Of a stretch of 64,000 nucleotides of DNA, positions 14,482-48,127 are shown one piece after another. Source of the DNA: Thiohalobacter sp. (GTDB lineage: Bacteria > Pseudomonadota > Gammaproteobacteria > Thiohalobacterales > Thiohalobacteraceae); contig NZ_JALTON010000053.1 of NCBI RefSeq assembly GCF_027000115.1, positions 1-64,000 of the forward strand, given 5' to 3'. Numbering within the stretch: position 1 is the stretch's first letter; each line of letters starts with the position of its first letter. The notes under the pieces are model-generated. The model made no database searches, had not been told where the DNA came from, and saw only the letters and a program-made list of their open reading frames with translations. The translations under genes were made by a program, and so were the position numbers.

Positions 14482-14671
14482 GAGCACCTCCCTCCGATTC
14501 CATGAGTTGACCGCATGATCTGCACCCTGATTCAAGTGTAATCGAGGAATCGAATCCGGATTGTGACCATTTTTGGTCAAACACATATTATTGAGGCCTA
14601 CTTCAACCAAATTAATAAAATCACGCAATTTCCGCTAGATGATGTCCACAGAGTGATCTCCAGGAGCATCC

Positions 14672-22044: not shown

Positions 22045-22866
22045 TCAGAACCAGAAGCGCAGGCCGGCCACCAGCGCGGTGGTGCGCGTATCCTCGCCTT
22101 CGGCGCGGGCGAGATCCGCAGTATCCCCGTAAAGACCGGTCCATTCCACACCCACATAGAACGCGAACTCGCGTCGAATCTCGTAGCGCAGGCGCAGGCC
22201 CGCCGTGAGATCGGCCAGACCGCTGCCCAGGCCGCGGGCTGGATCGTCCCTGCCGTACAGGTTCGCCTCCAGCCGCGGCGTCAGCACCAGGCGCTGGCTC
22301 AGCAACAGCTCGTAGGACAGGTCGACGCGCGCGGCGCTGCGCCCGGATTCGCCGAGGTAGCCGGTGACATCGACCTCGAACCAGTAGGGCGCAAGCCCCT
22401 GGACCCCGAACGCCAGCCAGTCACGCCCCGGCCCGGTCCCGCTGTCGTGACGCCAGCCCAGCTGGGTATCCCAGAAGGCCGCGAAGGCATGTCCCCAGAG
22501 CAGTTCGGTACGGGCATCCTGCAGCCGGCCACCGTCATGCTCGCCCTCGGACTTGAGCACGGCGCGGTCGTAGTCACGGCCGAACCAGCTCTGGAGATCG
22601 AACGCGGCCGAGCCGTTGTCGCGGGTGCGCACCCACTCCAGCTGCTCGACCCGCAGGGAAGCGAAGGCCTTCTCGTCTGCCAGCCGCAGCCGCGGGAGCG
22701 GGCCGAAGCCCTGCCCCTCGGCATAGGCATGCGGGTCACGGGCATCGGCGGGCGGACTTCCCCCCTGCATGCGGCCACCCTGCATGTCCGCCATGCTACC
22801 AGCCGTCGCCAGCGGGCCATGTGCCAGCGCGACGAACAGCGGGATTGCAACGAATCTTCTGTTCAT
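22045..22866 (-). CDS. copB: Copper resistance protein B, outer membrane
   Basis: 273 residues: signal peptide (to about residue 23), a short Met/Gly-containing linker (MADMQGGRMQGG), and a CopB beta-barrel with ELLWGHAFAAFWDTQLGWRHD, APYWFEVDVTGYLG and C-terminal aromatic GLRFWF. PcoB/CopB proteins work with the multicopper oxidase CopA in periplasmic copper resistance. The Met-rich segment is shorter than in Pseudomonas CopB. Follows the copA oxidase gene by 27 nt. Confidence 0.93.
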   Translation of the reverse strand: MNRRFVAIPLFVALAHGPLATAGSMADMQGGRMQGGSPPADARDPHAYAEGQGFGPLPRLRLADEKAFASLRVEQLEWVRTRDNGSAAFDLQSWFGRDYDRAVLKSEGEHDGGRLQDARTELLWGHAFAAFWDTQLGWRHDSGTGPGRDWLAFGVQGLAPYWFEVDVTGYLGESGRSAARVDLSYELLLSQRLVLTPRLEANLYGRDDPARGLGSGLADLTAGLRLRYEIRREFAFYVGVEWTGLYGDTADLARAEGEDTRTTALVAGLRFWF

Positions 22867-22893
22867 GGGAATTCCTCTCGTCAGTATGCGCAT

Positions 22894-24708
22894 TCAGGAC
22901 ACCACGACTTCGCGGAACATCCCGGCATCCATGTGATAGAGGAGATGGCAGTGCCATGCCCATCGCCCCAGTGCATCGGCGGTCACCAGAAAGCTGACCC
23001 GCTGCGCGGGCTGTACGCTGATGGTGTGCCGGCGCGCAAGGAAGCCGCCACCGGGCTGTTCCAGCTCGCTCCACATACCATGCAGATGCATGGGATGGGT
23101 CATCATGGTGTCGTTGACCAGCACCACCCTGAGGCGCTCGTTGTAGCGGAAGTGGACCGGCGTCGAACGGCCGAATTCCAGGCCGTCGAGGGACCAGGTA
23201 TAGCGTTCCATGTTGCCGGTCAGGTGCAGCTCGATCTCGCGCTCGGCATCACGGGCATCCAGCGGGCCGCCGAGGGTGTGAATGTCGGCGTAGGTCAGCA
23301 CCCGCCGGCCGTTGTCACGCAGCCCCACGCCCGGATCGTCCAGGTTGGTCCGAGGATAGTCCACCCGCATGTCGACACTGGGTCCGTACTCGGTGCGGGC
23401 ATGGCGTGCGCGCGGCATGCCGGACATGCCACCCATGCCGGCCATGTCATGCATGCCACTCATGCCGCCGTGCATGGCATGGGTGCCACCGCCGCCCATG
23501 CCACCTTGCGCCCCATGATCCATGCCGGACATGGCGCCGTGACCCATGCCGCCCTGGGCCATCGCCCCCATCATGTCCACCATGCCGAGCCACTGCGGGG
23601 GGTCGGGCTCGGGTACCGGGGCGCTCATCCCCGGACGCGGGGCCAGTGTACCGCGGGCGTAGCCGGTACGATCCATGGACTGGGCGTAGAGGGTATAGGC
23701 CCTGTCTTCCGGTTCCACGATGACGTCATAGGTTTCGCCAGGGCCGCAACGGAACTCGTCGATGGTGACTGGCTCCACATCCTGACCATCCACGTGCACC
23801 AGTGTCATTTTCAGCCCGGGTATGCGCACGTCGAAAAAGCTCTGGGTGCCACTGCTGATGAAGCGCAGGCGCACGCGTTCCCCGGACTTGAACAGGGCCG
23901 TCCAGTTACCGGCCGGCGGGGTGCCGTTCATCAGGTAGGTGTAGGTATAGGCCGAGATATCCGCGAGATCGGTCGGACTCATCCGCATCCGGTTCCACAT
24001 GCGGCGGCGGGCCAGCGCCTCGGACCAGCCGCGTTCCGAGACATCGCGGAGGAAATCCCCGAGCGTGGGCTGGTTGAAGTTGTAGTAGTCGCTCTGCTTC
24101 TTGAGCCTTGCGAAGACGTCCATCGGGTCCTCGTCCGTCCAGTCGGACAACTGCACCACGTAATCCCGGTCGGCACGGATGCGGGGGCCGTCGGCAGGAT
24201 CGATGATGATGGTACCGTACATCCCGGTCTGCTCCTGGAAGCCGGTATGCGAGTGATACCAGTAGGTACCGGACTGCTGCACCCTGAAACGGTAGACAAA
24301 GGTCTCGCCGGGCGCGATGCCGGGAAAGCTGACGCCGGGAACGCCGTCCATCTGGTAGGGCAGGATGATGCCGTGCCAGTGGATGGAGGTGCTGACCGGA
24401 AGGCGATTGGTCACCCGCAGCGTCACGGTGTCGCCCTCACGCCAGCGCAGGATCGGACCCGGTATCGAGCCGTTAATGGTGGTCGCCATCCGCGGCCGGC
24501 CGGTAAAGTTGACTAGGGTCTCGGAAATGACGAGATCGAACTCGGTGCCCGACAGCACCGGCACATTGCCGGTCACCGCGGCCCCGGGGGTGGCGCCCGG
24601 CCAGGCCCGGCCGGGCAGCGACAGCAGCAGGCCGCCGGCCGCCAGTCCCTCGATGAATCGCCGGCGCGAGCGGTCCGGCAGATCGTCAGACGCTTGGTAT
24701 CGCTTCAT
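22894..24708 (-). CDS. copA: CopA/PcoA-type multicopper oxidase
   Basis: 604 residues. A twin-arginine signal (SRRRFIEGL, residues 14-22) directs folded export. Copper sites: IHWHG, YWYHSHTG, HPMHLHG and WHCHLLYHMDAGM. A Met/His-rich stretch of about 50 residues (roughly 385-435) with repeated GMxGM units is typical of PcoA. It oxidises Cu(I) to Cu(II) in the periplasm. Not the same gene as the CopA ATPase at 7295-9523. Located immediately upstream of copB. Confidence 0.96.
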   Translation of the reverse strand: MKRYQASDDLPDRSRRRFIEGLAAGGLLLSLPGRAWPGATPGAAVTGNVPVLSGTEFDLVISETLVNFTGRPRMATTINGSIPGPILRWREGDTVTLRVTNRLPVSTSIHWHGIILPYQMDGVPGVSFPGIAPGETFVYRFRVQQSGTYWYHSHTGFQEQTGMYGTIIIDPADGPRIRADRDYVVQLSDWTDEDPMDVFARLKKQSDYYNFNQPTLGDFLRDVSERGWSEALARRRMWNRMRMSPTDLADISAYTYTYLMNGTPPAGNWTALFKSGERVRLRFISSGTQSFFDVRIPGLKMTLVHVDGQDVEPVTIDEFRCGPGETYDVIVEPEDRAYTLYAQSMDRTGYARGTLAPRPGMSAPVPEPDPPQWLGMVDMMGAMAQGGMGHGAMSGMDHGAQGGMGGGGTHAMHGGMSGMHDMAGMGGMSGMPRARHARTEYGPSVDMRVDYPRTNLDDPGVGLRDNGRRVLTYADIHTLGGPLDARDAEREIELHLTGNMERYTWSLDGLEFGRSTPVHFRYNERLRVVLVNDTMMTHPMHLHGMWSELEQPGGGFLARRHTISVQPAQRVSFLVTADALGRWAWHCHLLYHMDAGMFREVVVS

Positions 24709-25145: not shown

Positions 25146-26248
25146 CAGGTACAGTCACATCCCGGGTGTGGCTGCAGCAGCGGCTGCTGGCGCCGACCGA
25201 CCCAGGCGCGATACCACAGCCGCTTGAGCAGCCGGGGCGCGTAGGCCCGGCGCAGATAGTCGCGCGGATCGCCATCCGCCGGAAAACGATGGATGACGGC
25301 ACGATAGCCGCGATCACCCAGGCGCTCGTAGAGCCAGCGGTTGGTGGCCGCGGTTTCCTGCCGGGGGCGCAGGCGCTCGCGCCAGAAGGTCTCGTAGTCC
25401 GCGGGCCGGCCGGCGGCCAGCGCCCGCCCGGCGGCCGCGCCACTGAGCAGCGCGCTGCGGAGACCGAACCCGAACAGCGGGTCCTGGAAGCCGGCCGCCT
25501 CGCCGGCGTAGAGGATATTGCCCTTGCGGGCGGTGCGCGGCAGGAAGAAGTTGCCGCTGCCGCCGAAGCGGCGCGGGTTGCGCATCACCAGGCCCACGCG
25601 GGCGCGGAAGAATGCCTCGACCCGCGCCACGTACTCGCGCTCGCGATGGAAATCGTCGAACAGACAGCTGGCCAGGGTACCCTGCCCGCCCTGGATCAGC
25701 AGGTAGGCGTAGCCCTTTGGCGCCAGGCGATCGGAGATGGCGGCATAGGCGGCGTCCGCCATGTCGGTCTCGAACAGCCAGCCTGCGGCGATGGCATCGG
25801 CCCGGTGCGGCCCCTCGGTCACGATGCCGCCCTGCGGCAGACGCGACACCGTGTCACCGAAGCGCAGTTCGGCGCCCGCCGCGAGCGCCTGGGCCTTGAG
25901 CGCCGCATCCAGGGTGCCGGGACCGGGGCCGCGGCGCAGCAGATGGAACAGCGGCGCCTCGGAGCGAAACAGCCGCGGCACGCCATCCGGATCGAACAGC
26001 GTGACCTCGTGAAAGGGAACCTGCCCGAACTCGGGCACAATCCCGGCAGCGGCCAGCTCGTCGAGCACGTCTCCGGGGGTTGTCCAGTTCTCCAGGCCCT
26101 GGAAATCGCCATGAAAGCGCAGCCCGACATCGGCCCGGCGCTCGTGGACCACGGCCTCACGCCCCGCGGCACGCACCGCCAGCGCCGCCGCCAGCCCGGC
26201 CGGACCCGCGCCAACGATCTCCACCACCTGCCCGCCCGCCTCAGCCAT
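25109..26248 (-). CDS. FAD-dependent oxidoreductase (geranylgeranyl-reductase-like)
   Basis: 379 residues. N-terminal dinucleotide fold VEIVGAGPAGLAAALAVRAAG, later FAD-contact segment ILYAGEAAGFQDPLFGFGLRSA as in the geranylgeranyl reductase/halogenase group. The C-terminus carries a small Cys cluster (CDCTWCRCRH) that may bind metal, unusual for the family. Its start overlaps the upstream ABC-YHS gene stop by 8 nt, so it belongs to the same transcript. Substrate unknown. Confidence 0.8.
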   Translation of the reverse strand: MAEAGGQVVEIVGAGPAGLAAALAVRAAGREAVVHERRADVGLRFHGDFQGLENWTTPGDVLDELAAAGIVPEFGQVPFHEVTLFDPDGVPRLFRSEAPLFHLLRRGPGPGTLDAALKAQALAAGAELRFGDTVSRLPQGGIVTEGPHRADAIAAGWLFETDMADAAYAAISDRLAPKGYAYLLIQGGQGTLASCLFDDFHREREYVARVEAFFRARVGLVMRNPRRFGGSGNFFLPRTARKGNILYAGEAAGFQDPLFGFGLRSALLSGAAAGRALAAGRPADYETFWRERLRPRQETAATNRWLYERLGDRGYRAVIHRFPADGDPRDYLRRAYAPRLLKRLWYRAWVGRRQQPLLQPHPGCDCTWCRCRHLAEGRS

Positions 26249-27113
26249 CCGCGTTCACCTGTCCCAGGTAACGCCGGGGATCGGCCGCGAAACGCTCCCG
26301 GCACCGTTTCGAGCAGAACACCACCGAACGGCCCCCGATTTCGAGGCGTTCGCTGGCGGTCCATTCGTCCACCCGCATGCCGCACACGGGGTCACGGACC
26401 CAGTGGTGCGGTTCGCTCCGGCGATCGCGGAGGGCCCCGTCCTCGAGCCAGAGGATCCGGTCCGCCACGTCCTCGACCCGCGGATCGTGGGTGACCATGA
26501 CTACCGCCCGTCCCTCGTCGCGGGCAATGTCGTGCAGCAGCATGACCACCTCCTGTCCCTTCTGCGAATCCAGATTGCCGGTCGGCTCGTCGGCAAGGAT
26601 CAGCGGCGGGCGATTGACCAGGGCGCGGGCAATGGCCACCCGCTGCTGCTCGCCACCGGAGAGGGTTGCCGGCAGGGCGTGGCGCCGCTCCAGCAGCTCG
26701 AAGCGTTCCAGCAGTTCCCGGGCCCGTGGCCGCGCCGCCGCCACGCCCCCGGGCGCCAGCTGCGCGGGAAACAGGATATTGTCCTCCACCGTCAGCGCCT
26801 CCAGCAGATTGAAGGCCTGAAACACGAAGCCGATGCGTTGTGCCCGCAGCGCCGGGCGGCGCCCCGGCGGCAGGGCGGTGACGTCGATGCCATCGATCTC
26901 GACCCGCCCCCGGTCCGGGGTCAGCAATGCCCCCAGCATGGACAGCAGCGTGGTCTTGCCGGAACCCGACGGCCCCATGATCAGCACCAGCTCGCCGCGA
27001 GCCACTTGCAGGCTGACCTCGTCCACCGCTCGCACCTCGGCCGGCCCGCTGCCGAAGGACTTGCTGATGCCCTCGGCCTGCAGGATGGGCCCCGGTTCGT
27101 TCGCGGCAGTCAT
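26241..27113 (-). CDS. ABC transporter ATPase with C-terminal YHS domain
   Basis: 290 residues. LolD/MacB-type ATPase: Walker A GPSGSGKTT (47-55), signature LSGGEQQR (151-158), Walker B LILADEPTG, H-loop VTHD. After residue 235 a YHS domain is fused: DPVCGMRV (C244) and FCSKRC (C267, C271) to about 284. The start at 27113 overlaps the permease stop (ATGA). LolD-type ATPases drive FtsX-like permeases in lipoprotein or macrolide/peptide export; the YHS tail suggests metal sensing or delivery in this one. Confidence 0.88.
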   Translation of the reverse strand: MTAANEPGPILQAEGISKSFGSGPAEVRAVDEVSLQVARGELVLIMGPSGSGKTTLLSMLGALLTPDRGRVEIDGIDVTALPPGRRPALRAQRIGFVFQAFNLLEALTVEDNILFPAQLAPGGVAAARPRARELLERFELLERRHALPATLSGGEQQRVAIARALVNRPPLILADEPTGNLDSQKGQEVVMLLHDIARDEGRAVVMVTHDPRVEDVADRILWLEDGALRDRRSEPHHWVRDPVCGMRVDEWTASERLEIGGRSVVFCSKRCRERFAADPRRYLGQVNADG

Positions 27114-28219
27114 CGTTGAAACGCCTCCAGCGGATCGACCCGCATCACCGCCCGCGCCGGCCACAGCGACGACAGCACGGCCACCGGCAGTCCGACGCCC
27201 GCCAGCCACAGCAGCATGGAACCATCTACCAGCAGCGAGATCTGCGGCATGATCTGCGGCACCCAGGGCAGCAGCCACCAGCCGCCCGCCGCCGCCAGCA
27301 GCACACCCGCCAGAGTGATCAGCGAGGTCTGCAGGATGACCGCGCCGTACAGGGCCGCGGCGCCGAACCCCAGCGCCCGCGCCACGGCCAGCTCCCGGCT
27401 GCGCCGTACCACCTGTCGCCAGGCCGTGAACGCCACCACCAGCACGGCCAGCAGGGCGCCGATCAGGGTCATGATGCGGATCACCTCGGTGCCCATCTGC
27501 ATGGCCATTTCCCGATCCCGCGCCACGAAGATCGCGGCCGGCAGGGCGCTGACCTTGTCGACCTCCGACTCGATGCGCTGCGCCAGCTCGGCTGGCGAGA
27601 CGCCGGGCCGGGCGCTGACCAGCAGGTAGCTGACCGCATCACGGACGTTCATGAGCTCCGCCAGGTCCGCGCGGGCGACGAAGGTGACCGAGTTGGCCAT
27701 GGAGAAGGTACCGCGAGACAGGCCGACGATGCGCAGGGCGCGGCCCAGCAGGGTTACCTGATCCCCCGGCCCGAGGCCGGCGATCCGTGCCAGCACCTCG
27801 GGCACCACCACCTCGCCGGGACCGGGCAGGCGCCTGCCGCTGGCCATCGCCCAGGGGCCGGCACGGCGCGCATCCCGGTCGACGCCCACCACATAGGTGA
27901 ACCACTCCCGGCCCCCGGCCGACACCACCGTGTTCAGGTACAGGATGGGCTCGACCGCCGCCACGCCGGGCACCCGCGCCACGCGGTCCAGTTTCCAGTC
28001 CCACAGCAGGGAGCTGGCCATGTGCATGTTGGACACGCCCTTCTGCATCACCCAGACGTCGGCGCCGGCATGGCTCGGATAGGCCACGATGCTCCGGGAC
28101 TCGCCCTCGAACACGGCATCGAAGAACAGCACCAGCAGGAAGGCGGCAGCCACCGCGACCGCGCCGGAAAGCGGCCGGCCGGGCTGGTGCAACAGGTCTC
28201 TGAGGCCCCAGTTCAGCAT
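27110..28219 (-). CDS. FtsX-type ABC permease 1
   Basis: 369 residues with the MacB/FtsX layout: one N-terminal helix, a large periplasmic domain (about 45-235), then three helices near the C-terminus (RIMTLIGALLAVLVVAFTAW, ELAVARALGFGAAALYGAVI, VGLPVAVLSSLWPARAVMRVDPLEAFQR). Pairs with permease 2 and the YHS-fused ATPase as an ABC unit. Starts 1 nt after permease 2. Confidence 0.87.
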   Translation of the reverse strand: MLNWGLRDLLHQPGRPLSGAVAVAAAFLLVLFFDAVFEGESRSIVAYPSHAGADVWVMQKGVSNMHMASSLLWDWKLDRVARVPGVAAVEPILYLNTVVSAGGREWFTYVVGVDRDARRAGPWAMASGRRLPGPGEVVVPEVLARIAGLGPGDQVTLLGRALRIVGLSRGTFSMANSVTFVARADLAELMNVRDAVSYLLVSARPGVSPAELAQRIESEVDKVSALPAAIFVARDREMAMQMGTEVIRIMTLIGALLAVLVVAFTAWRQVVRRSRELAVARALGFGAAALYGAVILQTSLITLAGVLLAAAGGWWLLPWVPQIMPQISLLVDGSMLLWLAGVGLPVAVLSSLWPARAVMRVDPLEAFQR

Positions 28220-28220
28220 C

Positions 28221-29351
28221 TCACCTCCGGAACACCCGCATCGGGTCCAGGCCCGTCAGCAGGCGCAATGGCACCAGTGCCGCGAACAGCGCAATCAGCA
28301 GGGTCGCTGTCGTGACCTGCGCCAGCAGCCGGGCGCCGGTCACCTCCACCCGGTACAGCGGCTCGCTCCACTCCACCAGCCCCGCGATCGCCAGCGCCGC
28401 GAGCAGACCGACGGGCAGCGCGGCCAGGGTCAGGAGCAGCGCCTCCAGCAGCGGAATCCGCAGCAGACTGCGGGCCGGGAAGCCGAGCGCCATCATCAGT
28501 CCGAGGCTCCGCTGGCGCCCCGCCACCGACGAGAACACGATCAGCGCCACCACCAGCAGGCAGATCAGATAGCCGATAGCCACCAACACGGTCATGACCG
28601 GCCCGAACAGGGTGCGGCCCAAGGTCACGTCGCGTTCCGCCAGCCTATCGGGCAGCCAGGCGCTGACATCCGGCACCGCGGCCTCGATCGCCTGCGCCAG
28701 ACGCTGCGCAGGCACGCCGGGGGCGGCATCGACGATCAGGTAACCCAGCAGGGGCAGGCTGGCCAGATCCCCCATCAGGTCCGACTCGAAGTAGAAGTCG
28801 ATCAGATCGTCGTAGCGAACGAACACCAGCGGGGTGAACATGGCAGCGGCCCCGCGCGTGGCACCGACGATGCGAAAACCGAATCCGGACAGTTCCAGGG
28901 TGTCGCCCACCGCCAGGTGCTGCAGGTCCAGCAGCGAGACATCGACCACCACCTCCCGCGGCCCCGCTATGCCCCGGCCCTGCACCAGCGGCCCCGGACC
29001 GCCGCGGCCATCGTGCACCAGCAGCATGATCGGGGTCTTGCGTCCGTGGCGTTCGTAGATCAGCGGCACCAGGGTGAGCGGCCAGGTGGCCGCGACCCCG
29101 GGCACGGCCTCGACCTCGCCGCGGCTGAGCTGGCGCAGCGTCGAACGGCTGGCAAGAAAGCTGGTCACGCCGCGCTGGGTGACGATGAGATCCCCGCCGC
29201 GCATCATGACCACCTGTCGCAACTGCTGGTACAGGCCGGACTCGAAACCCTGCAGCACCAGCACCACGGCCACCGCCGTGCCGATGGCGATGCAGGCGAA
29301 CAGGGTGTTGCCGCGTTCCAGGCGCAGCTGCCGAAGCAGCCAGCCCGTCAC
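28221..29351 (-). CDS. FtsX-type ABC permease 2
   Basis: 376 residues from a GTG at 29351 with AGGGGG upstream; a TTG at 29372 is the alternative. Same layout as permease 1: N-terminal helix (NTLFACIAIGTAVAVVLVL), periplasmic domain, three C-terminal helices, ending LDPMRVFRR. The two permeases differ in sequence, so a heterodimer is expected. Together with the ATPase it forms a DevBCA/LolCDE-like unit without an obvious membrane fusion partner. Confidence 0.85.
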   Translation of the reverse strand: MTGWLLRQLRLERGNTLFACIAIGTAVAVVLVLQGFESGLYQQLRQVVMMRGGDLIVTQRGVTSFLASRSTLRQLSRGEVEAVPGVAATWPLTLVPLIYERHGRKTPIMLLVHDGRGGPGPLVQGRGIAGPREVVVDVSLLDLQHLAVGDTLELSGFGFRIVGATRGAAAMFTPLVFVRYDDLIDFYFESDLMGDLASLPLLGYLIVDAAPGVPAQRLAQAIEAAVPDVSAWLPDRLAERDVTLGRTLFGPVMTVLVAIGYLICLLVVALIVFSSVAGRQRSLGLMMALGFPARSLLRIPLLEALLLTLAALPVGLLAALAIAGLVEWSEPLYRVEVTGARLLAQVTTATLLIALFAALVPLRLLTGLDPMRVFRR

Positions 29352-29422
29352 CGCCCCGCCCCCTGCCGGCAATCGGCAGCCCTGCGTGAGGCCACAGGCC
29401 GTGGCGACCGCTGCGTCATCTG

Positions 29423-30163
29423 CTAGCCCTCCGTGGCCTGGCCATCGCCGCAGAAACAGGAGGGCCGCCGGAAGTGGCGCCGGCTGTAGGCATCGATCAG
29501 CCGTGCGACCAGCTGCCCGGGATCGGCGTCGTACAGGACCTCGGCCCCAGTGTCCTTGTCGAATTGGCGGATGACCTCCGGCAGCGTATCGGTGATGCCG
29601 CCACTGCCGGAGAGGACGCCGATCAGCTTGCCCTCGTCATAGGCGATGGCGAACTCGCCCAGCGTACCCGACCGTCCGCCAACGATGATGACCATGTCGC
29701 TGGAGCGTATGTTGGTGACCTCCCGGCCCATCAGGCCACTGCCGGTATAGACCATGACGTCGAAGGCATCGGCGGGCGAGTGATACTTGTACAGATGCTC
29801 GTCCAGACTGAGCGCCGGCGAGATGCCGACCGAAAGGCCCTCCCGACTGCGGACCCCCTGCGCGCAGGCGTGGGGAAGCCCGGGACAGGCTCCGGTCACC
29901 AGGATCAGCCCGGCATCGCCGATGGCCTCGCCCAGCCGCTCGGCCTGGCGCTGAAGCGCGGGATCCGGATCGGCCGCGGCCGAGCCCATGACCCCGACCG
30001 CCAGGCGCTGGCCCTCGGCATTGCCCCGGTAGCGTTCGGTATCCTCGAGAAAGTGTTCGCGGCACCCCTCGCTGCAGAAGTACCAGGCCCGCCCGTCGAC
30101 TACGGCCATGGCCTCTGCCTCGCGCAGGTCAAACTTCATCAGACACACCGGATCACGCACCAT
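29423..30163 (-). CDS. LOG/TIGR00725-like Rossmann protein with N-terminal YHS domain
   Basis: 246 residues from the ATG at 30163, 7 nt after GGAGGG; ATGs at 30169 and 30181 overlap the Shine-Dalgarno. Residues 1-46 form a YHS domain (C7 in DPVCLM, C30 and C34 in FCSEGC), then a LOG-like Rossmann domain with TGACPGLPHACAQG and the GGRSGTLGEFAIAYDEGK motif of TIGR00725 nucleotide-binding proteins. LOG enzymes are nucleotide phosphoribohydrolases, but TIGR00725 members are uncharacterised. The fusion ties it to the metal island. Confidence 0.82.
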   Translation of the reverse strand: MVRDPVCLMKFDLREAEAMAVVDGRAWYFCSEGCREHFLEDTERYRGNAEGQRLAVGVMGSAAADPDPALQRQAERLGEAIGDAGLILVTGACPGLPHACAQGVRSREGLSVGISPALSLDEHLYKYHSPADAFDVMVYTGSGLMGREVTNIRSSDMVIIVGGRSGTLGEFAIAYDEGKLIGVLSGSGGITDTLPEVIRQFDKDTGAEVLYDADPGQLVARLIDAYSRRHFRRPSCFCGDGQATEG

Positions 30164-30216
30164 GTTCATGCCCTCCTTCATGATTGCCGGCGCTGCGGCC
30201 GCCACGCCGCTCGCGG

Positions 30217-30825
30217 TTACCGCCCCGCACGCCGCGCCTTTTCCAGCACCATCAGCAGCCCCAGCGCAGGGTGCTTGAACTGGGCATGGCGCAGCATGGG
30301 CCAGTAGCTGTCCAGATACTGCTCGATGAACCCGATCATGTGCCCCAGCGTCAGCACTGCGTAATGCCGGGGCGGTGGACTGGGCAGGCTGGTACCGAAG
30401 GCCATCAGCCGCACCCGGTGGCCGCTGTGGGTGACCGCCTGCCCGGCATGCAGCAGCTCGCCCACGGTGTGGTCCGCATGGCGCAGATCACAGCAGCCGA
30501 AGCGCGCCAGTACGGTACGCAGCACATCGGGGTTGCGCGCATTGCGGTTCAGTTCGGCGTGCCCTTCCTTGACCTCACCGATGAGCATGTCCGCCTCCGA
30601 GCCGTCGATGCCGAGCGCAGGATCTGGCGCGAACAGCGGCTGGTCCTCTCGCCCCGGCACCAGCCGGCCGGCGCCGGGAAAGCGAAAGGCCAGCATGTCC
30701 AGATCGGTCGCCGTCTCGTAGCTGCGGCGGCCGGCAGCCTCGATCACCGGATACTCGGCCACGGTGAAGTAACCATTCAGTTGCAGATAGGCCTGTACCA
30801 GGGCAACGGCATGATCCATGGGCAT
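30217..30825 (-). CDS. Putative PD-(D/E)XK nuclease-like protein
   Basis: 202 residues, soluble. The order TATDLDMLAFRFP, then DMLIGEVKEGHAELN, resembles the D...(E)xK core of PD-(D/E)XK phosphodiesterases (Asp in TDLD, Glu-x-Lys in GEVKEG). No DNA-binding domain or methylase partner is seen. A start at 30819 with GGAG at 8 nt is also possible. It is 9 nt downstream of the glucan phosphorylase gene. The nuclease assignment is motif-based only. Confidence 0.55.
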   Translation of the reverse strand: MPMDHAVALVQAYLQLNGYFTVAEYPVIEAAGRRSYETATDLDMLAFRFPGAGRLVPGREDQPLFAPDPALGIDGSEADMLIGEVKEGHAELNRNARNPDVLRTVLARFGCCDLRHADHTVGELLHAGQAVTHSGHRVRLMAFGTSLPSPPPRHYAVLTLGHMIGFIEQYLDSYWPMLRHAQFKHPALGLLMVLEKARRAGR

Positions 30826-30834
30826 GACTCCGGC

Positions 30835-32553
30835 TCAGCGGATCCCGTAGGCCTCGGTGGCATAGCGCCGCATCATGCGGTGGCTGTTGAAATAGCTGGC
30901 GTTCTTGGCGATGGCACCCTTCATCACGGCCACCCAGCCGGACCGGTCACCGTGATACAGCGGCAACACGACCTCATCCAGCTTGACGTAGAGGGCCTCG
31001 GCATCGCCGTCGCTCGCCGCCGGCACACTGTCACCCACCGCCCAGCCGGTCACGCCCTCGATGCAACCCTCTATCCACCAGCCGTCCAGCACGCTGAGGC
31101 TGGGCACGCCATTGAATGCCGCCTTCATGCCACTGGTCCCGGAGGCCTCCATCGGCCGCAGCGGCGTGTTGACCCACAGGTCGACGCCGGCGACCAGTGC
31201 CTGTGCCATCGCCATGTCGTAGTCCGGCAGGTAGACCACCGGCAGTGCCTCGCCCAGCTCGCGCGCCCAGGTGTGGATCCGGGCGATCAGCTGCTTGCCA
31301 CCCTCGTCGCGCGGATGCGCCTTGCCGGCGAGCACGATCTGGAAGGGATGACGCCCGGCAATGGCGCGCAGGCGGCCGAGATCCGAGAACAGCAGGTCGG
31401 GACGCTTGTAGGCCGTCATGCGCCGGGCAAAGCCCAGCAGGGGCCTGCCCGGATCCAGGGTGCGGCCGGTCACGGCCTGGATGTGATCGAGCAGGGCCGT
31501 CTTCGCCTCGGCATGCGCAGCGAGAATGGCATCGTCTCCGATGCAGCAATCGACCCGCGCCAGCAGTTCCGGCTCGTGGCACCATCCGGGGATGTGCGCA
31601 TCGTAGAGCCGGCGGAATGGCGCGCTGGTCCAGGTGAAGGGATGCACGCCATTGGTGATGGCGTGGACCTCGTAGCCGGGGAACATGCTGCGGGACACCT
31701 CGGCATGCCGCCGGGCCACGCCATTGACGTACTCGCTCATGTTGAGCGCCAGCCGGGTCATGTTCAGCTGGTCGCTGCCGGCCAGCCGGCGCAACAATGC
31801 CGGTTCGACCGGCTCGCCCAAGGCCTGCTGCACCAGGCCGTAGTCGAAACGGTCATGCCCGGCCTCGACCGGCGTATGGGTGGTGAAGCTCATTCGCTCG
31901 CGGGCACGGGGCAGATCGTAGGGCAGTTCGCCCGGGCGCAGATCCTCCGGCGGATAGCGGAACCGGCGCAGCAGTTCCAGCGCGATGAAGGCCGAATGGC
32001 CCTCGTTGAGATGGTAGTGGCGGATCTCGAACCCCAGCGCCTGCAGCAGGCGCACGCCACCGATGCCCAGCACCATCTCCTGCTGCAGGCGATAGGCCGC
32101 ATCGCCGCCATAGAGAAAGTCGGTCAGGCAGCGGTCCTCGGGCGTGTTTTCCGCAAGATCGGTGTCGAGCAGGATCACCGGCTGGCGACCGTTCATGTGG
32201 CCTTCCAGCACATGCAGCCAGCCCCCGATCCAGACCTTGCGCCCGCCGATCTCCAGCGCCACCCGTGCATCCAGCGGCCGCGCCCACTGCGCCGGATCCC
32301 AAGGGTCCGGCGCCTCCTGCTGACGGCCCTCGCCGTCGAGCGACTGGCGAAAATAGCCCTGTCGGCTCACCAGGGTCACCCCAACCAGTGGCAGCTCCAG
32401 GTCGGCCGCGGAGCGCAGAGTGTCGCCAGCCAGCACGCCCAGGCCGCCGGCATAGGTCGGAATCTCCGCCCGAAGTGCGATCTCCATGCTGAAGTAGGCT
32501 ACCCGTGGCCCGTGCACAAAGGGCTCGAGGAGATCGGCAACAGGCTCAGACAT
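30835..32553 (-). CDS. glgP: Alpha-glucan (glycogen) phosphorylase, short form
   Basis: 572 residues, the short TIGR02094/GT35 form that lacks the extra N-terminal region of classical glycogen phosphorylase. N-terminal VAYFSMEIALRAEIPTYAGG, central NEGHSAFIALELL, GMNGVHPFTW-type region (HAITNGVHPFTWTS), and the PLP-binding segment MEASGTSGMKAAFNG with the Lys. It releases glucose-1-phosphate from alpha-1,4-glucans. Its start overlaps the Rieske gene by 8 nt, an unexpected partner for a carbohydrate enzyme. Confidence 0.93.
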   Translation of the reverse strand: MSEPVADLLEPFVHGPRVAYFSMEIALRAEIPTYAGGLGVLAGDTLRSAADLELPLVGVTLVSRQGYFRQSLDGEGRQQEAPDPWDPAQWARPLDARVALEIGGRKVWIGGWLHVLEGHMNGRQPVILLDTDLAENTPEDRCLTDFLYGGDAAYRLQQEMVLGIGGVRLLQALGFEIRHYHLNEGHSAFIALELLRRFRYPPEDLRPGELPYDLPRARERMSFTTHTPVEAGHDRFDYGLVQQALGEPVEPALLRRLAGSDQLNMTRLALNMSEYVNGVARRHAEVSRSMFPGYEVHAITNGVHPFTWTSAPFRRLYDAHIPGWCHEPELLARVDCCIGDDAILAAHAEAKTALLDHIQAVTGRTLDPGRPLLGFARRMTAYKRPDLLFSDLGRLRAIAGRHPFQIVLAGKAHPRDEGGKQLIARIHTWARELGEALPVVYLPDYDMAMAQALVAGVDLWVNTPLRPMEASGTSGMKAAFNGVPSLSVLDGWWIEGCIEGVTGWAVGDSVPAASDGDAEALYVKLDEVVLPLYHGDRSGWVAVMKGAIAKNASYFNSHRMMRRYATEAYGIR

Positions 32554-33173: not shown

Positions 33174-33437
33174 TCATTCTTGACCGCGTGCCGCTACCCG
33201 GTTGTGGATCGGCACCCAGATCAGGGCAAAGTACCAGCCGTAGGCATAGGCCTCGATCAGCCCCATGACAAAACTTTTCCACGACAACCACTGGAAACCC
33301 GGCAACAGCGCACGCCAGGACTGGTACATGGCCATGTCGGGAAAGGCCAGATCCCAGGCCACGCACAAGACGAAGGTAATGGCCAGGAACAGGCTGGTGG
33401 CATGACCCACCGCTGCCAGTGAAACCCGTGTACTCAT
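33174..33437 (-). CDS. DUF5676-like small membrane protein
   Basis: 87 residues with GGGAGGT upstream. Two hydrophobic helices (TSLFLAITFVLCVAWDLAF and SFVMGLIEAYAYGWYFALIW) around SWRALLPGFQWLSW, the pattern of DUF5676 proteins that accompany heavy-metal genes. The ATG overlaps the stop of the YHS protein gene (33434-33437), so the two are translationally coupled. Confidence 0.75.
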   Translation of the reverse strand: MSTRVSLAAVGHATSLFLAITFVLCVAWDLAFPDMAMYQSWRALLPGFQWLSWKSFVMGLIEAYAYGWYFALIWVPIHNRVAARGQE

Positions 33438-33706
33438 GGCGCACCTCCCGGTTGCGAATCGCCCTGCGGGCCTCCGATATAACGTTGCGGGTCGTCGTCG
33501 AAGCGCTCCAGGCAACGGCGCGAACAGAAGCGGTAGAGACGCCCGGAGTACATGCGCGCATAACCCTGTCCGGCTTCGACCGTCATCCCGCAGACCGGAT
33601 CGGTGCCCGCACCAAGGGTGCTGCCCGCAGCCGCGTGACCGCCATGCATGTCCAGCATCATCCAGATGCAGAGCGCGACAAGAAGGAACAGCAACAGACT
33701 TCCCAT
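33434..33706 (-). CDS. Membrane-anchored YHS domain protein
   Basis: 90 residues. An N-terminal helix (MGSLLLFLLVALCIWMMLDM) is followed by a short His-containing linker and one YHS domain with DPVCGM and FCSRRC. A small membrane-bound metal binder, possibly a copper donor or acceptor. Overlaps the downstream DUF5676 gene by 4 nt; GGAGG lies just before the start. Confidence 0.82.
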   Translation of the reverse strand: MGSLLLFLLVALCIWMMLDMHGGHAAAGSTLGAGTDPVCGMTVEAGQGYARMYSGRLYRFCSRRCLERFDDDPQRYIGGPQGDSQPGGAP

Positions 33707-33728: not shown

Positions 33729-35036
33729 TCAACCCGCCGCCGCTACGGGAGACGCCCGGTACAGGTCATCCCGTCGCAGCGGCAACTCCAGGGTATCGTG
33801 CACCCGTCCACCCAGAATCTGATAGACGTTGATGCTGCCCTCGTAGAAATAATGGGCACAACCCGCCATGTACAGCCGCCACAGCCGCCAGGTCCGCCGA
33901 TCGGCGCAGGCCGCGGCTGCCTTCTGGCTGGCCTCGAGGCGGGATACCCAGTGGCGCAGGGTCAGGGCGTAATGGCGCCGCAGGCTCTCGACATCGGCGA
34001 TCTCGAAACCAGCCTGTTCCATGGCCTGGACAACCTGCCCGAACCGTGCCAGCTCGCCATCGGGAAAGATGTAGCGATTCATGAACCGGGTCAGCGGCGT
34101 GTCCCGCCAGCCATGCTCGCTGGTGATCCCGTGATTGAGAAACAGGCCGCCCGGGCGCAGCAGCCGATGCACCGTTTCGAAGTAGCGCGGGAAATTGGCC
34201 ACTCCGATGTGTTCGAACATGCCGACACTGACAATGCGGTCATATACCGCACTGCCCTCGAGTTCACGATAGTCGCGCAATTCGATCCGGACCTGCCCCT
34301 CCAGGCCTTCGGTCCGCACACGCTCCCGGGCCCAGTGATACTGCTCTTCACTGAGGGTAATCCCATGCACCTTTGCGCCATGGCGCCGCGCCGCCCAGCA
34401 GGCGAGCGCACCCCAGCCGCAGCCGATGTCGAGCAGGTGCTGCCCTCGTCGCAGCCGCAGCTTGCGGCAGATATACTCCAGCTTGTCGCGCTGGGCCTCC
34501 TCCAGGGACTGGTCCGGGTCACGAAAATAGGCGCAGGAGTACACCCGCTCGGCATCCAGCCATAGGCCATAGAAGTCGTTGCCGACATCGTAATGGCGGG
34601 CGATGGCGGAAGAGGAATTGGGTTCCGGCCCGGCGCCCCGGCCAGCCCCAGCAGCGGTACCGCTGCGCGGCAGGCGCCAGGCCCGGCCCGCCAGGCGCAG
34701 CCGGTTGGCCAACGGCAATGACAGCGTTTCGAAGTGACCGGCCAGAGTGAACAGGGATTCCAGATCACCTTCCACCTCCACCCGCTCGGCCAGATAGGCC
34801 TCGGCGAGCTGCAGCAGGTCGCGCACGAGGATCAGATCGCGCAACACTCCGGGATCGCGCAGCAGGATCCGGCAACGCGCATTGGCCGGTCCGGCGACCT
34901 GCTGTCCATCCCAAAGCGCCACTGAAACCGGTGCTCGGCTGCCTGCCAGCAGCTGCGTCACAATATACTTGCCCAGGCGCAAATCCTTCTGCTTGTGCGC
35001 CCGCCCGAATGCCGGCTCTTCCGCAATCCCGCTCAT
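33729..35036 (-). CDS. Cyclopropane-fatty-acyl-phospholipid synthase-like methyltransferase (paralogue 2)
   Basis: 435 residues, same architecture as the gene at 13186-14481: N-terminal domain then RHYDVGNDFYGLWLD, SCAYF, LLDIGCGWGALACWAA, GMFEHIGVANFPRYF and a long C-terminal MAGCAHYFYEGSINVYQILGG. Conserved catalytic-site segments are retained. Placed between the MerR gene and the YHS gene, so possibly metal-stress-linked lipid modification. The two paralogues share most motifs but differ in their N-terminal regions. Confidence 0.9.
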   Translation of the reverse strand: MSGIAEEPAFGRAHKQKDLRLGKYIVTQLLAGSRAPVSVALWDGQQVAGPANARCRILLRDPGVLRDLILVRDLLQLAEAYLAERVEVEGDLESLFTLAGHFETLSLPLANRLRLAGRAWRLPRSGTAAGAGRGAGPEPNSSSAIARHYDVGNDFYGLWLDAERVYSCAYFRDPDQSLEEAQRDKLEYICRKLRLRRGQHLLDIGCGWGALACWAARRHGAKVHGITLSEEQYHWARERVRTEGLEGQVRIELRDYRELEGSAVYDRIVSVGMFEHIGVANFPRYFETVHRLLRPGGLFLNHGITSEHGWRDTPLTRFMNRYIFPDGELARFGQVVQAMEQAGFEIADVESLRRHYALTLRHWVSRLEASQKAAAACADRRTWRLWRLYMAGCAHYFYEGSINVYQILGGRVHDTLELPLRRDDLYRASPVAAAG

Positions 35037-35112: not shown

Positions 35113-35562
35113 TCACGAGGGGGCAATGGCCTGTTCGTCTTCCGACTCGATCAGATGGCACACCTGATCACCGTCCGGAACGCCGTCCGGCAGGTGCTGC
35201 CAGCGTTCCAGTGCACGTTCCATGCGCGTCTGCAGCGCGACCAGCTCATTCAGCACCTGTCGATTCTGCGCCACCCGCCGCTCGAGAATGCGGCGAACCC
35301 GCGGGCAGGGCGAGCGCCCTGAGTCGGCGTCCTGCAGGATCTCCGCGATCTCCTTCAGGCTGAACCCCAGCCGCTGGACCCGACGAAGGAAACGAATCCG
35401 CTTGGCATCACGCGGTCGGTAGCGACGATAGCCGTTGGCAGGATCGCGAGCCGGCTGCAACAGACCACGACGGGTGTAGTGACGCACCGCGTGCACGGTG
35501 GTCTCCGCGGCACGCGCCAGCTGTGCGACGGTCAGCCCCTGATTTCCGTTCCCCGAAGCCAT
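35113..35562 (-). CDS. MerR family metal-responsive regulator
   Basis: 149 residues from the ATG at 35562. MerR helix-turn-helix (LTVAQLARAAETTVHAVRHYTRRGLL) and the family PANGYRRYRPRD segment, long dimerisation helix, and two cysteines that could bind metal: C86 in SPCPRVRRIL and C135 in QVCHLIE, near the positions used by ZntR/CadR/HmrR-type sensors. It lies 37 nt downstream of the P1B-ATPase gene, its likely target operon. Confidence 0.88.
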   Translation of the reverse strand: MASGNGNQGLTVAQLARAAETTVHAVRHYTRRGLLQPARDPANGYRRYRPRDAKRIRFLRRVQRLGFSLKEIAEILQDADSGRSPCPRVRRILERRVAQNRQVLNELVALQTRMERALERWQHLPDGVPDGDQVCHLIESEDEQAIAPS

Positions 35563-35599
35563 TCCGCCATCACCAGCGGTCACTGATGCAACATGCGGG

Positions 35600-38224
35600 C
35601 TACAGTCGCACGCGCCGCAGCCGCAGGGCATTGGCGATCACCGACACCGAACTGAAGCTCATGGCAGCGGCGGCGATGATCGGTGACAGCAGCAAACCGA
35701 ATGCGGGATACAGCACGCCGGCGGCGACAGGCACGCCCAGCGAGTTGTAGATGAAGGCGAAGAACAGATTCTGGCGTATATTGCGCATGACCGCGCGACT
35801 GAGCCGGCGCGCCCGCACGATGCCGCGCAGGTCCCCCTTGACCAGGGTCACGCCGGCGCTCTCCATGGCAATATCGGTGCCCGTGCCCATGGCGATGCCG
35901 ACATGGGCCTGGGCCAGCGCCGGGGCGTCGTTGATGCCGTCGCCGGCCATGGCCACCATGCGGCCCTCGGCCTGCAGTTTCTTGACCACTTCCACCTTCT
36001 GTTCGGGCAGCACCTCGGCCTCGACGCGATCGATGTTCAGCTTCCGTGCGACGGCCTCGGCGGTGGTCCGGCTGTCCCCCGTGAGCATGACGATCTCCAG
36101 CCCTTCCCGGTGGAGATCGGCGATGGCCTCGGGCGTGGTGGGCTTGATGGGGTCGGCGACGCCCAGCAGGCCGGCGGCACGGTCGTCGATGGCGACAAAC
36201 ATCACCGTTTGACCCTCGCCCCGCAACCGTTCTGCAACCGCCGGCAGATCACCGAAGTCGATACCCAGATCGGCCATCAGCCGCGCATTGCCCAGTGCCA
36301 CCCGCCTGTCCCCGACGGTTCCGTTGACACCCTTGCCCGTGATGGCCTCGAATTCATTCGGCGACGAGAGTTCCAGCGCACGCGCCTCGGCCCCGCGAAC
36401 GATCGCCGCCGCCAATGGATGCTCGCTGCCTCGCTCCAGGCTGGCTGCCAGGCGCACCAGCGCCTGTTCCTCGAAACCCTCGGCGGGCGTCACGCTGACC
36501 AGTTCCGGATGCCCTTCGGTCAGGGTCCCGGTCTTGTCCACCACCAGCACATCGACCTTGCGCATGATCTCGAGCGCGGTGGCATCCTTGAACAGCACGC
36601 CCATGGTCGCGCCCTTGCCGGTACCGACCATGATGGACATAGGCGTCGCCAGGCCCAGAGCGCAGGGACAGGCAATAATGAGTACGGCGACGGAATTGAC
36701 GATGGCGTGGGCGAGTCTGGGCTCGGGCCCGATGCTGAACCAGGCCACGAAGGCCACGATTGCGATCAGCACCACGGCCGGCACGAACCAGGCCGAGACC
36801 TGATCGGCCAGCTTCTGGATGGGCGCGCGCGAGCGCTGTGCCTCGCTCACCATGCGCACGATCTGCGACAGCAGGGTATCGGCACCCACCTTCTCGGCAC
36901 GCATGAGCAGGCTGCCATTGCCGTTGATGGTGGCGCCGATGACGGTATCGCCCGGCTGCTTCTTCACCGGCAGGGGCTCACCGGTGACCATCGACTCGTC
37001 GACGGTGCTGCTGCCCTCGAGCACGGTGCCGTCCACCGGAATCTTTTCTCCGGGACGCACCCGGAGGCGGTCGCCGACCTGGACCTTGTCCAGTGGCATG
37101 TCCTCTTCGCGGCCATCCTCGCGGACGATACGGGCGGTACTGGGCGCCAGCCCCAGCAGCATCTGGATAGCGGCGCTGGTTCGCGATCGTGCCCTCAACT
37201 CCAGCACCTGCCCCAGCAGCACTAGGGCCGTGATCACGGCGGCCGCTTCGAAGTACACCGAGACGGTCCCGTCATCATGTCGCATGCTGGGCGGGAACAG
37301 TTGCGGCGCGATCAGGGCCACCACGCTGTAGGTCCAGGCGACCGCCACGCCGAGGCCGATCAGGGTGAACATGTTCAGGTTCCAGGTCACCACGGACTGC
37401 CAGCCACGGACGAAGAAGGGCCAGCCACCCCAGAGCACCACAGGCGTGGCGAGCGCGAACTCGATCCACTGGACCGTTTTCATGGAAAGACCGGACGGCA
37501 ACCACTGCGGCGCCAGGTCCGCCACCATGGCCAGCACGAACACGGGCAGGGCGAGGACCGCACCCACCCAGAAGCGCCGGGTCATGTCGATCAGCTCGGG
37601 ATTCTCCTCGACCTCCGCCGTGACGGTGCGAGGTTCCAGCGCCATCCCGCACTTGGGACAGTTCCCCGGATGGTCCTGCACCACCTCGGGGTGCATGGGA
37701 CAGACGTATTCGGTCTTGACCGCGGGCTGCGGCGCCGTTTCCGGCTCCAGCGCCATACCACACTTGGGACAGGTGCCCGGCCCCTTCTGCCGCACCTCCG
37801 GGTGCATGGGACAGGTGTAGATGGTTTCCACGTCGATGCCGCAGACATCGCCTTCGCAAGGCGCCCGTTCGCTGTCCGTTTCGCCATCCGTCGACGACGC
37901 ACCCACCGAGGGTCGGCCTGTGGCATGCCCCGCACCGCCGGACTTCGGCAGGTAGCGTTCGGGATCCTCGGAAAACTTGTGCTGGCAGCTCTCGCTGCAG
38001 AAGTGGAAGGTCACACCCGAATGATCCAGCTTCCAGGGCGACTCCTCTCCGACCTCCATGCCGCAGACCGGGTCCTGCCATGGCGGTCCGGCATAGATCC
38101 CGGGATTGCTGTTGAATTTCTCCAGGCAGGACTCGGAACAGAACAGGTAATTGCGCCCGGCATGTTCCGCCCGCCAGGGTGAGTCATCCGCGACCTGCAT
38201 ACCACAAACTGGGTCTTTCGCCAT
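35600..38224 (-). CDS. P1B-ATPase with two YHS and two HMBD domains
   Basis: 874 residues. The N-terminus has two YHS domains (about 3-45 and 50-92; C7, C29, C33, C54, C76, C80) and two heavy-metal-binding domains, YTCPMHPE (137-144) with CPKCGM, and YVCPMHPE (173-180) with CPKCGM, but no HMA domain. The core is complete: TGEP, CPC ([11 protein letters not shown]), [24 protein letters not shown]. Last helices have YNSLG and SFSSVSV, the P1B-1 Cu/Ag signature. AAGGAG before the ATG. Followed by the MerR gene. Confidence 0.93.

Positions 38225-43250: not shown

Positions 43251-43254
<4 letters not shown>
42787..43254 (-). CDS. Cytochrome c lipoprotein
   Basis: 155 residues. Lipoprotein signal ending LLAGC (Cys about 19), then a class I cytochrome domain with CAACH and the C-terminal [26 protein letters not shown] providing the Met ligand. 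Overlaps the CusA stop region by 4 nt (ATGA-type at 43251-43254), so co-transcribed with the efflux system; it may take electrons from copper oxidation. Confidence 0.9.
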
Positions 43255-46409
<3,155 letters not shown>

Positions 46410-46420
46410 GTCCGCCCCCG

Positions 46421-48127
46421 CTACTCGCCGCCAAGCACCTGGATGCTGTCGATGCGATAAACCCCGTCATCGCCCGGTACCAGCGTGAAATAGACGCGCT
46501 GACCCGCTTGCAGGCCCTCCAGGCTCGCCGTGTCCGTCAGCGCGAAGTCCATGGTCATCGCCGGCCAGCCCAGCGCCTCGATGGGCTCGTGCGCCAGGGT
46601 GAGCTTGCGCGCCTCGGCCATCACGGCCTCGACGGCGCCCATACCGGTAACCGGTTGCGGCTCGCCCATGCGATGGATCTGGGTGATGACCCAGCCCGAG
46701 TCCTGTTGCTCGAGGGTGAAGTGGATTTCCTCGCCGGCTTCGAGCCCGGTGATGTCCACGCCCTCGGCCACCAGGAAGTCCATGGTCATCGCCGGCCAGC
46801 CCAGCGCCTCGATGGGCTCGTGAGTCAGGTTCAGCTTGCCACTGGCGGCGTCCACTGCCTCGACCCGGCCCTGTCCGGTGACCGGGCCGTCCTGTGCCGC
46901 CCGCGCGTCCCCACCTTGCAAGCGCTGGATGCTGCCCTTGATGCTGGCCTCGGAATCGATCAGGAACTGGCCGGAGGTCACCACCGTCTCGCCTTCATCG
47001 AGGCCGGCGAGGATCTCCACCCAGTCGCCCGACTCCATGCCGGCCCGTACCTCGCGGGCGGTAAACTTGCCTTCGCCGAGCGCGATGATAACCCGCTCCA
47101 TGTCGCCGGTGCGGATCAGTGCCTCGCGCGGGATCATCAGCACATCGTCCTTCGGACCGGCATAGACGCGCGCATTGGCGTACATCTGCGGCTTGAGCGC
47201 CTCGTCGGGGTTGTCGAAGCGCAGGCGTGCGCGCAGGGTACGACTCTTGGGGTCGACGGTGGGGTAGACAAACTCGACCTCGCCCTCCCAGACCCTTCCC
47301 GGCAGATAGGGCAGGCTTACCTCGGCCGGCTGGCCGGCCGCCACCCAATTGGCCTGGCGCTCGAACACGTCGACCAGCAACCAGACGCTGGAGAGGTCCG
47401 CGAGCGTCATCACCTCCGTCTTCGGCGTCACATACATGCCCTCGCGCACGCGCAGATTGGCAACGATGCCATCCTGGCTGGCACGCACCCGCACCAGTTG
47501 CGCGGCGCGCCCTGTTCGCGCGATCTCGCGGATCTGGTCGGGCGCCATGCCCAGCGCGATCAGGCGCTCGCGCGAGGCGCGGACCAGGTATTCGCTGTTG
47601 GCGCGGTGGGCCTGGAGGTATTCCTCCTGGGCGTTGACCAGGTCGCGGGAATAGACCTCGAACAGCACCTGTCCCTTTTTCACCCGCTCGCCGTCGGACT
47701 TGACATACAGGCGATCGATCCAGCCGTCGGTCCGCAGATGCACATGACTGATCCGTCGTTCGTCGTAGTCGACGTAACCGACGGTCTTGATCATCCGCCA
47801 CAGCCGCCCGCGTTCCACCTTTGTGGTGCGCACGCCGAGGTTCTGTACCACTGCGGGGTCGATCTTGACGACATCGCCCGCGCCCGCCTCGTCCGCGTAC
47901 ACGGGCACCAGATCCATGCCCATGGGCGACTTGCCGGGCTTGTCGCGGCGGTAGTTGGGGTCCATGGGCGCGACCCAGTAGAGGATCTCGCGCTCGCCTT
48001 CGGCCGCGGCGTTGCCTTCAGCGGACTCGCCGCCACCGTCGGGGCCGCCCGCCGGCTGCAGATACATGCCGATGCCGACTCCGGCCGCCAACAGGACCGC
48101 GGCGCCCATCCAGTTGCTGACCTTCAT
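46421..48127 (-). CDS. cusB: CusB-type membrane fusion protein with two fused CusF-like domains
   Basis: 568 residues. N-terminal anchor, a heavy-metal-binding-like segment with no Cys ([28 protein letters not shown]), the adaptor barrel, lipoyl and hairpin regions (about 95-400), and then two CusF-type domains in tandem. The domains share [16 protein letters not shown] in both copies, starting about 77 residues apart, containing the W and M of the CusF copper site. CusF is a separate chaperone in E. coli; here it is doubled and fused. Between cusC and cusA in transcription order. Confidence 0.92.
46544..46822 (-). repeat. Perfect 48-bp direct repeat inside cusB
   Basis: Bases 46544-46591 and 46775-46822 are identical, 231 bp (77 codons) apart and in the same frame. 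They encode the shared [16 protein letters not shown] core of the two CusF-like domains. Identity at silent positions implies a recent copy event or ongoing gene conversion. The direct repeat could also delete one domain by recombination. Confidence 0.9.

Follow-up and report, generated by a model that had tools for sequence, protein, structure and literature searches.

The window, a 64,000-nucleotide stretch of DNA from a Thiohalobacter sp., encodes a protein in which an N-terminal YHS domain is fused to a SLOG domain. The fusion is real and conserved, its gene lies among copper resistance genes, and it is not described in the literature searched. We conclude that the protein probably acts as a nucleotide enzyme or sensor that responds to metal. 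Our preferred reading, put forward tentatively, is that a copper-responsive YHS domain sits on a nucleotide-binding, probably hydrolyzing SLOG domain, and that the gene is carried by mobile copper islands. A metal-linked nucleotide protein had been suggested in a preliminary description of the sequence; this is reasonable in view of the conserved fusion, the copper resistance setting and the Arg/Glu pair of LOG type, but the identification with LOG itself does not hold.

The predicted ATG start at 30163 is preceded by a good ribosome-binding sequence, AAGGAGG, with an 8-nt spacer; an in-frame GTG at 30205 is a second possible start. Both Pfam domains score above their curated cut-offs: YHS (PF04945, residues 2–47) with 35.2 bits against 30.3 (E 1.2e-8), and LDcluster4 of the SLOG group (PF18306, residues 54–218) with 147 bits against 26.3 (E 3.8e-43). 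The latter profile is matched by 58 of 58 relatives. Scores for the NCBIfam models fall below their cut-offs, at 71.5 against 106.9 bits for TIGR00725, 25.9 against 300 for the LOG model NF058542 and 27.6 against 96.35 for the LOG model TIGR00730. Since the TIGR00725 score falls short of the curated threshold, the protein is best labeled SLOG cluster 4, TIGR00725-like. The open reading frame, its two-domain architecture, C7, C30, C34 and the GGRSGTLGE motif (residues 162–170) are all as the preliminary description gave them. It also called the CLM at residues 7–9 a variant; the residues are correct, but they are not unusual in the clade, where position 8 is most often L (15/30 rows).

Table 1. 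Features of the fusion gene and of the copper island in the window.
Feature	Position	Strand	Evidence or remark
YHS-SLOG fusion protein, 246 aa, ATG start	29423..30163	-	ORF, Pfam, AlphaFold (pLDDT 92.2, pTM 0.89)
YHS domain, residues 2-47; putative metal ligands D4, C7, C30, C34 and M9	30023..30160	-	Pfam PF04945, ligand counts
SLOG LDcluster4 domain, residues 54-218; R147/E170 at LOG catalytic-pair spacing	29510..30004	-	Pfam PF18306, alignment A1
C-terminal SCFC (C236, C238)	29450..29461	-	Near-invariant in proteobacterial clade, missing from actinobacterial fusions
c27, PD-(D/E)XK nuclease-like protein, 202 aa, upstream neighbor	30217..30825	-	Weak fold matches, best Z 7.6
Copper P-type ATPase, two YHS domains and two HMBD motifs	35600..38224	-	Same direction as fusion gene
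Second Cu-ATPase	7295-9523		
MerR-family regulator	35113..35631	-	
Small YHS protein	33434..33706	-	
MacB/LolD-type ABC ATPase, C-terminal YHS domain	26241..27278	-	
Permeases	27110-28219, 28221-29372		Upstream of YHS-bearing ABC ATPase
CopB and CopA multicopper oxidase	22045..24708	-	
CusA-type RND pump and CusB with CusF domains	43251..48127	-	
YHS protein, 212 aa	21519-22157		Extra uncharacterized C-terminal part
Cyclopropane fatty acid synthase-type genes	13186-14628, 33729-35036		In or near copper island
Alpha-glucan phosphorylase	30835-32553		In or near copper island

The search for the same fusion across genomes that the preliminary description had proposed was answered by a scan of one genome per species, which returned 80 loci. 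YHS is fused at the same place in 37 of them (L001–L037), all from species-level genomes other than that of the window; 31 form one clade of proteobacterial type (L001–L031) and six are from Actinobacteria (L032–L037). These 37 further fusions of the same architecture rule out an artifact or chance ORF, and they decide the first refuting condition of the preliminary description, absence of the fusion from other genomes, in that description's favor. The SLOG domain without YHS is widespread: L038–L080 are relatives of this kind, mainly from Chloroflexi, Acidobacteria, Actinobacteria and Hydrogenedentes. The exception is L042, a Methylotenera metagenome genome, in which a frame-shifted, broken copy of the fusion gene was identified (L042:8001-8740). 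Alignment A1 contains 36 fused rows (the window and 35 others, two near-duplicates being omitted), 30 proteobacterial and six actinobacterial, and all 36 pass the YHS profile.

In a tree of the SLOG part only, the proteobacterial (98/93) and actinobacterial (100/99) clades are both well supported, and all fused rows group to one side of a poorly supported branch (71/0). A single fusion event is the simplest reading of this tree and is probably what occurred; independent fusions in Proteobacteria and Actinobacteria are not needed. The gene is sporadic: it occurs in 9/369 genomes sampled from the class and 2/296 from the actinobacterial phylum, and ten other genomes from the family to which the window belongs yielded no full-length ortholog. 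This sporadic presence would fit horizontal transfer. A plasmid-borne gene was considered and rejected, with no match among 72,556 plasmids. The SLOG proteins of L022 and L023, from genomes named Methyloversatilis and Methylocaldum, are nearly identical and have similar gene order, indicating recent transfer or misbinning. L025, a bin assigned to Candidatus Polarisedimenticolaceae (Acidobacteriota), contains a fusion gene of proteobacterial type, as a result of either transfer or contamination.

The window is a copper island, in which five proteins have YHS domains (Table 1). The ABC ATPase and its two permeases constitute a YHS-bearing ABC exporter. Relatives of the 212-residue YHS protein are encoded near the SLOG gene in L014, L015, L024, L028, L030, L042 and L093. 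Two genes of the cyclopropane fatty acid synthase type and one for an alpha-glucan phosphorylase are also present in or near the island. Scanning the island for promoters was uninformative and returned no sigma-70-like sites.

The copper setting recurs in other proteobacterial loci. Metal-resistance markers occur within about 8 kb in 26/36 proteobacterial fusion loci, compared with 0/6 actinobacterial and 2/42 unfused loci. A Cu-ATPase is near the gene in 16/32 versus 1/43 loci (L042 is among the 43, and the count leaves out a distant match to a P-type ATPase in L003), and the Fisher value of 9e-7 for this difference overstates independence because the loci are related and probably go back to a single fusion event. 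In all six proteobacterial genomes with long enough contigs, the nearest Cu-ATPase is 0.1–24 kb away. Other island genes vary among loci and include those for glucan phosphorylase, cyclopropane fatty acid synthase, acetate kinase (five loci) and phosphoketolase (four loci). It could be speculated that ribose 5-phosphate from nucleotide cleavage feeds routes of this kind. Neighbors differ between loci, and no single obligate operon partner was found. The actinobacterial fusions (L032–L037) are near pyruvate dehydrogenase genes and, in most cases, menaquinone (futalosine) genes; four are beside a gene for an MBL-fold (CPSF-like) protein, and no copper genes were found near any of the six, which counts against the copper-responsive reading.

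The putative metal site is strongly conserved. D4, C7 and C30 are invariant in 36/36 aligned fusions, and position 34 is Cys in 29/36 and His in 7/36. The spacing of these residues (D-3-C-23-C-4-C) equals that of D178/C181/C204/C208 in the YHS domain of the Mycobacterium phlei adenylyl cyclase, a Mg2+-dependent enzyme that is turned on by 1–10 uM Cu2+ via this domain (PMC4626032). From this precedent we infer that the YHS domain of the fusion may bind copper and gate the SLOG domain. A point against this is the YHS domain of toluene-4-hydroxylase, which has no bound metal (cited in PMC4626032). M9 is present in 29/30 proteobacterial and 0/6 actinobacterial rows. Among the 29 proteobacterial rows that reach the C-terminus, C236 is found in 28 and C238 in 29; none of the actinobacterial fusions has the SCFC motif. 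The additional Cys and Met residues mark the same clade that is found in copper islands, a match that represents one contrast between two clades and not independent events. C93 shows the same contrast between the fused clades, yet is also present in most unfused relatives.

The YHS domain might instead handle metal passively, buffering copper or docking the SLOG enzyme close to the copper pumps, with no gating of the enzyme. In support of this reading, YHS modules in the island occur on several proteins that are not otherwise related (Cu-ATPase, ABC ATPase, a small protein and an uncharacterized protein). We nevertheless consider passive handling unlikely, given that the pTM of 0.89 suggests a fixed arrangement of the two domains in the model and that YHS does gate an enzyme in the M. 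phlei cyclase (PMC4626032).

Support for a copper-responsive nucleotide protein also comes from the SLOG domain. The AlphaFold check proposed in the preliminary description gave a confident model (58 sequences; pLDDT 92.2, falling below 50 only at residues 239–246). Its best fold matches are TM1055 (Z 25.2), followed by molybdenum cofactor (Moco) carriers (23.2 and 22.7), Pseudomonas LOG (21.8) and PpnN (about 18). Alignment A1 (58 sequences) has 43 invariant columns, including R147, E170 and T167; E122-H123, S129-P130, T140-G141-G143-L144-M145-R147-E148 and GxSGTLGEFAIAYDE are invariant. R147 and E170 match Arg99 and Glu122, the proposed catalytic pair of CgLOG, at the same spacing of 23, and T167 matches Thr119 (PMC4979012). 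Other CgLOG positions are replaced (Gly116 by R164, Glu121 by G169, Lys100 by E148 and Met96 by L144). The LOG motif PGGxGTxxE is likewise altered to GGRSGTLGE, its P and second G being replaced, and a plain LOG enzyme is ruled out by motif and curated scores. Thus, of the earlier assignment as TIGR00725/LOG-like, the SLOG fold and the LOG-type Arg/Glu pair stand, but TIGR00725 is below cut-off, the LOG motif and adenine-site residues are replaced, and the fold is nearer to TM1055 and the Moco carriers. Most of the phosphate and catalytic positions are retained, whereas the adenine site is not conserved, and we would therefore expect the ligand to differ from that of LOG.

The second refuting condition in the preliminary description, a lack of the catalytic residues of LOG, is answered only by half: the Arg/Glu pair is present, but the Moco carriers and TM1055 retain it at the same spacing in pairwise alignments, and its presence is therefore not proof of catalysis. 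Moco carriers are not known to hydrolyze nucleotides. The SLOG domain could accordingly hold a phosphorylated cofactor in the manner of these carriers, acting as a carrier or sensor that does not hydrolyze its ligand, with YHS shielding the cofactor from copper or freeing it on copper stress. The shared Arg/Glu spacing and the ranking of TM1055 and the Moco carriers ahead of LOG are in keeping with such a role. Arg42, the proposed phosphate ligand of the Rippkaea orientalis Moco carrier (PMC7470044), has no apparent counterpart in the pairwise alignment, where its position borders an insertion, and molybdenum cofactor genes were not seen among the neighbors examined; both points speak against the carrier reading. 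On balance we regard a non-hydrolyzing carrier as rather improbable, and nucleotide hydrolysis by the SLOG domain as likely from its residue pattern.

The upstream neighbor c27 occurs in nine loci, window included. Its stop codon overlaps the SLOG start by 4 bp (ATGA) in L001, L002 and L093, indicating translational coupling of the two genes. No Pfam match and no match in a PDB profile search were found for c27. Its model has a pLDDT of 77, and nearly all of the best fold matches are PD-(D/E)XK nucleases, although every match is weak (top Z 7.6; Foldseek E no better than 0.14). D41, D43, E84 and K86 are common to the nine sequences. The overlap, the invariant residues and the fold matches would suit a module in which a nucleotide is produced or sensed by the SLOG protein and nucleic acid is the target of its coupled, nuclease-like neighbor. 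With c27 restricted to nine loci, its fold matches weak, and no PADLOC family (E 0.01) for either protein, such a module seems very improbable. A known anti-phage defense system is ruled out by the lack of a PADLOC match.

In the copper-responsive nucleotide protein that we favor, the N-terminal YHS domain would bind copper through D4, C7, C30 and C34; in the proteobacterial clade, M9 and the C-terminal SCFC might contribute further ligands. Copper on YHS would alter the activity of the SLOG domain; we infer both this gating and its direction. The SLOG domain would accommodate a small, nucleotide-like ligand whose phosphate lies at SGT (165–167), and R147 and E170 would most likely cleave the N-glycosidic bond of the ligand, as in LOG and PpnN, with other base specificity. 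The most specific form of the proposal, a copper-gated phosphoribohydrolase or nucleotide-signal enzyme of new base specificity that is switched on by copper on YHS, is doubtful.

Accounts of bacterial copper resistance usually center on pumps, oxidases and chaperones. Metal stress would be linked to nucleotide metabolism or signaling by a conserved cytosolic protein that combines a putative copper module with a nucleotide domain. If the proposal is correct, a copper-gated SLOG domain would give copper islands a metabolic or second-messenger arm besides efflux and oxidation, YHS-SLOG would join the adenylyl cyclases as a second enzyme class under YHS control, and the uncharacterized SLOG cluster 4 family would gain a testable physiological context. 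In the literature searched, which did not include the main SLOG survey (Burroughs 2015) and so may miss an earlier mention, the YHS domain is never paired with a SLOG or LOG family, and LDcluster4 and TIGR00725 are not mentioned.

Several known systems share parts of this architecture. The best fold match, TM1055 (PDB 1rcu; Z 25.2, rmsd 1.8 over 164 residues, 28% identity), has, like the TIGR00725 family, a GGxxGTxxE motif, but it lacks a YHS domain and has no known function. Moco carriers (PDB 6y01, 2iz5; Z 22.7–23.2) have the Rossmann fold and the common Arg/Glu spacing, to which the fusion protein adds YHS and a copper context. The fold is also common to LOG, a cytokinin riboside 5'-monophosphate phosphoribohydrolase (Z 21.8). 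The Escherichia coli nucleosidase PpnN has a LOG-type core (Z about 18) inside a larger protein for which (p)ppGpp-bound structures have been solved; its extra domains are different, and it has no YHS. In Mycobacterium tuberculosis, disruption of log suppresses copper sensitivity via cytokinin-derived aldehydes, a different route from the one proposed here (PMC10470581). The M. phlei adenylyl cyclase likewise joins YHS to a nucleotide enzyme (PMC4626032), although there YHS is C-terminal and the catalytic domain, a class III cyclase, is unrelated.
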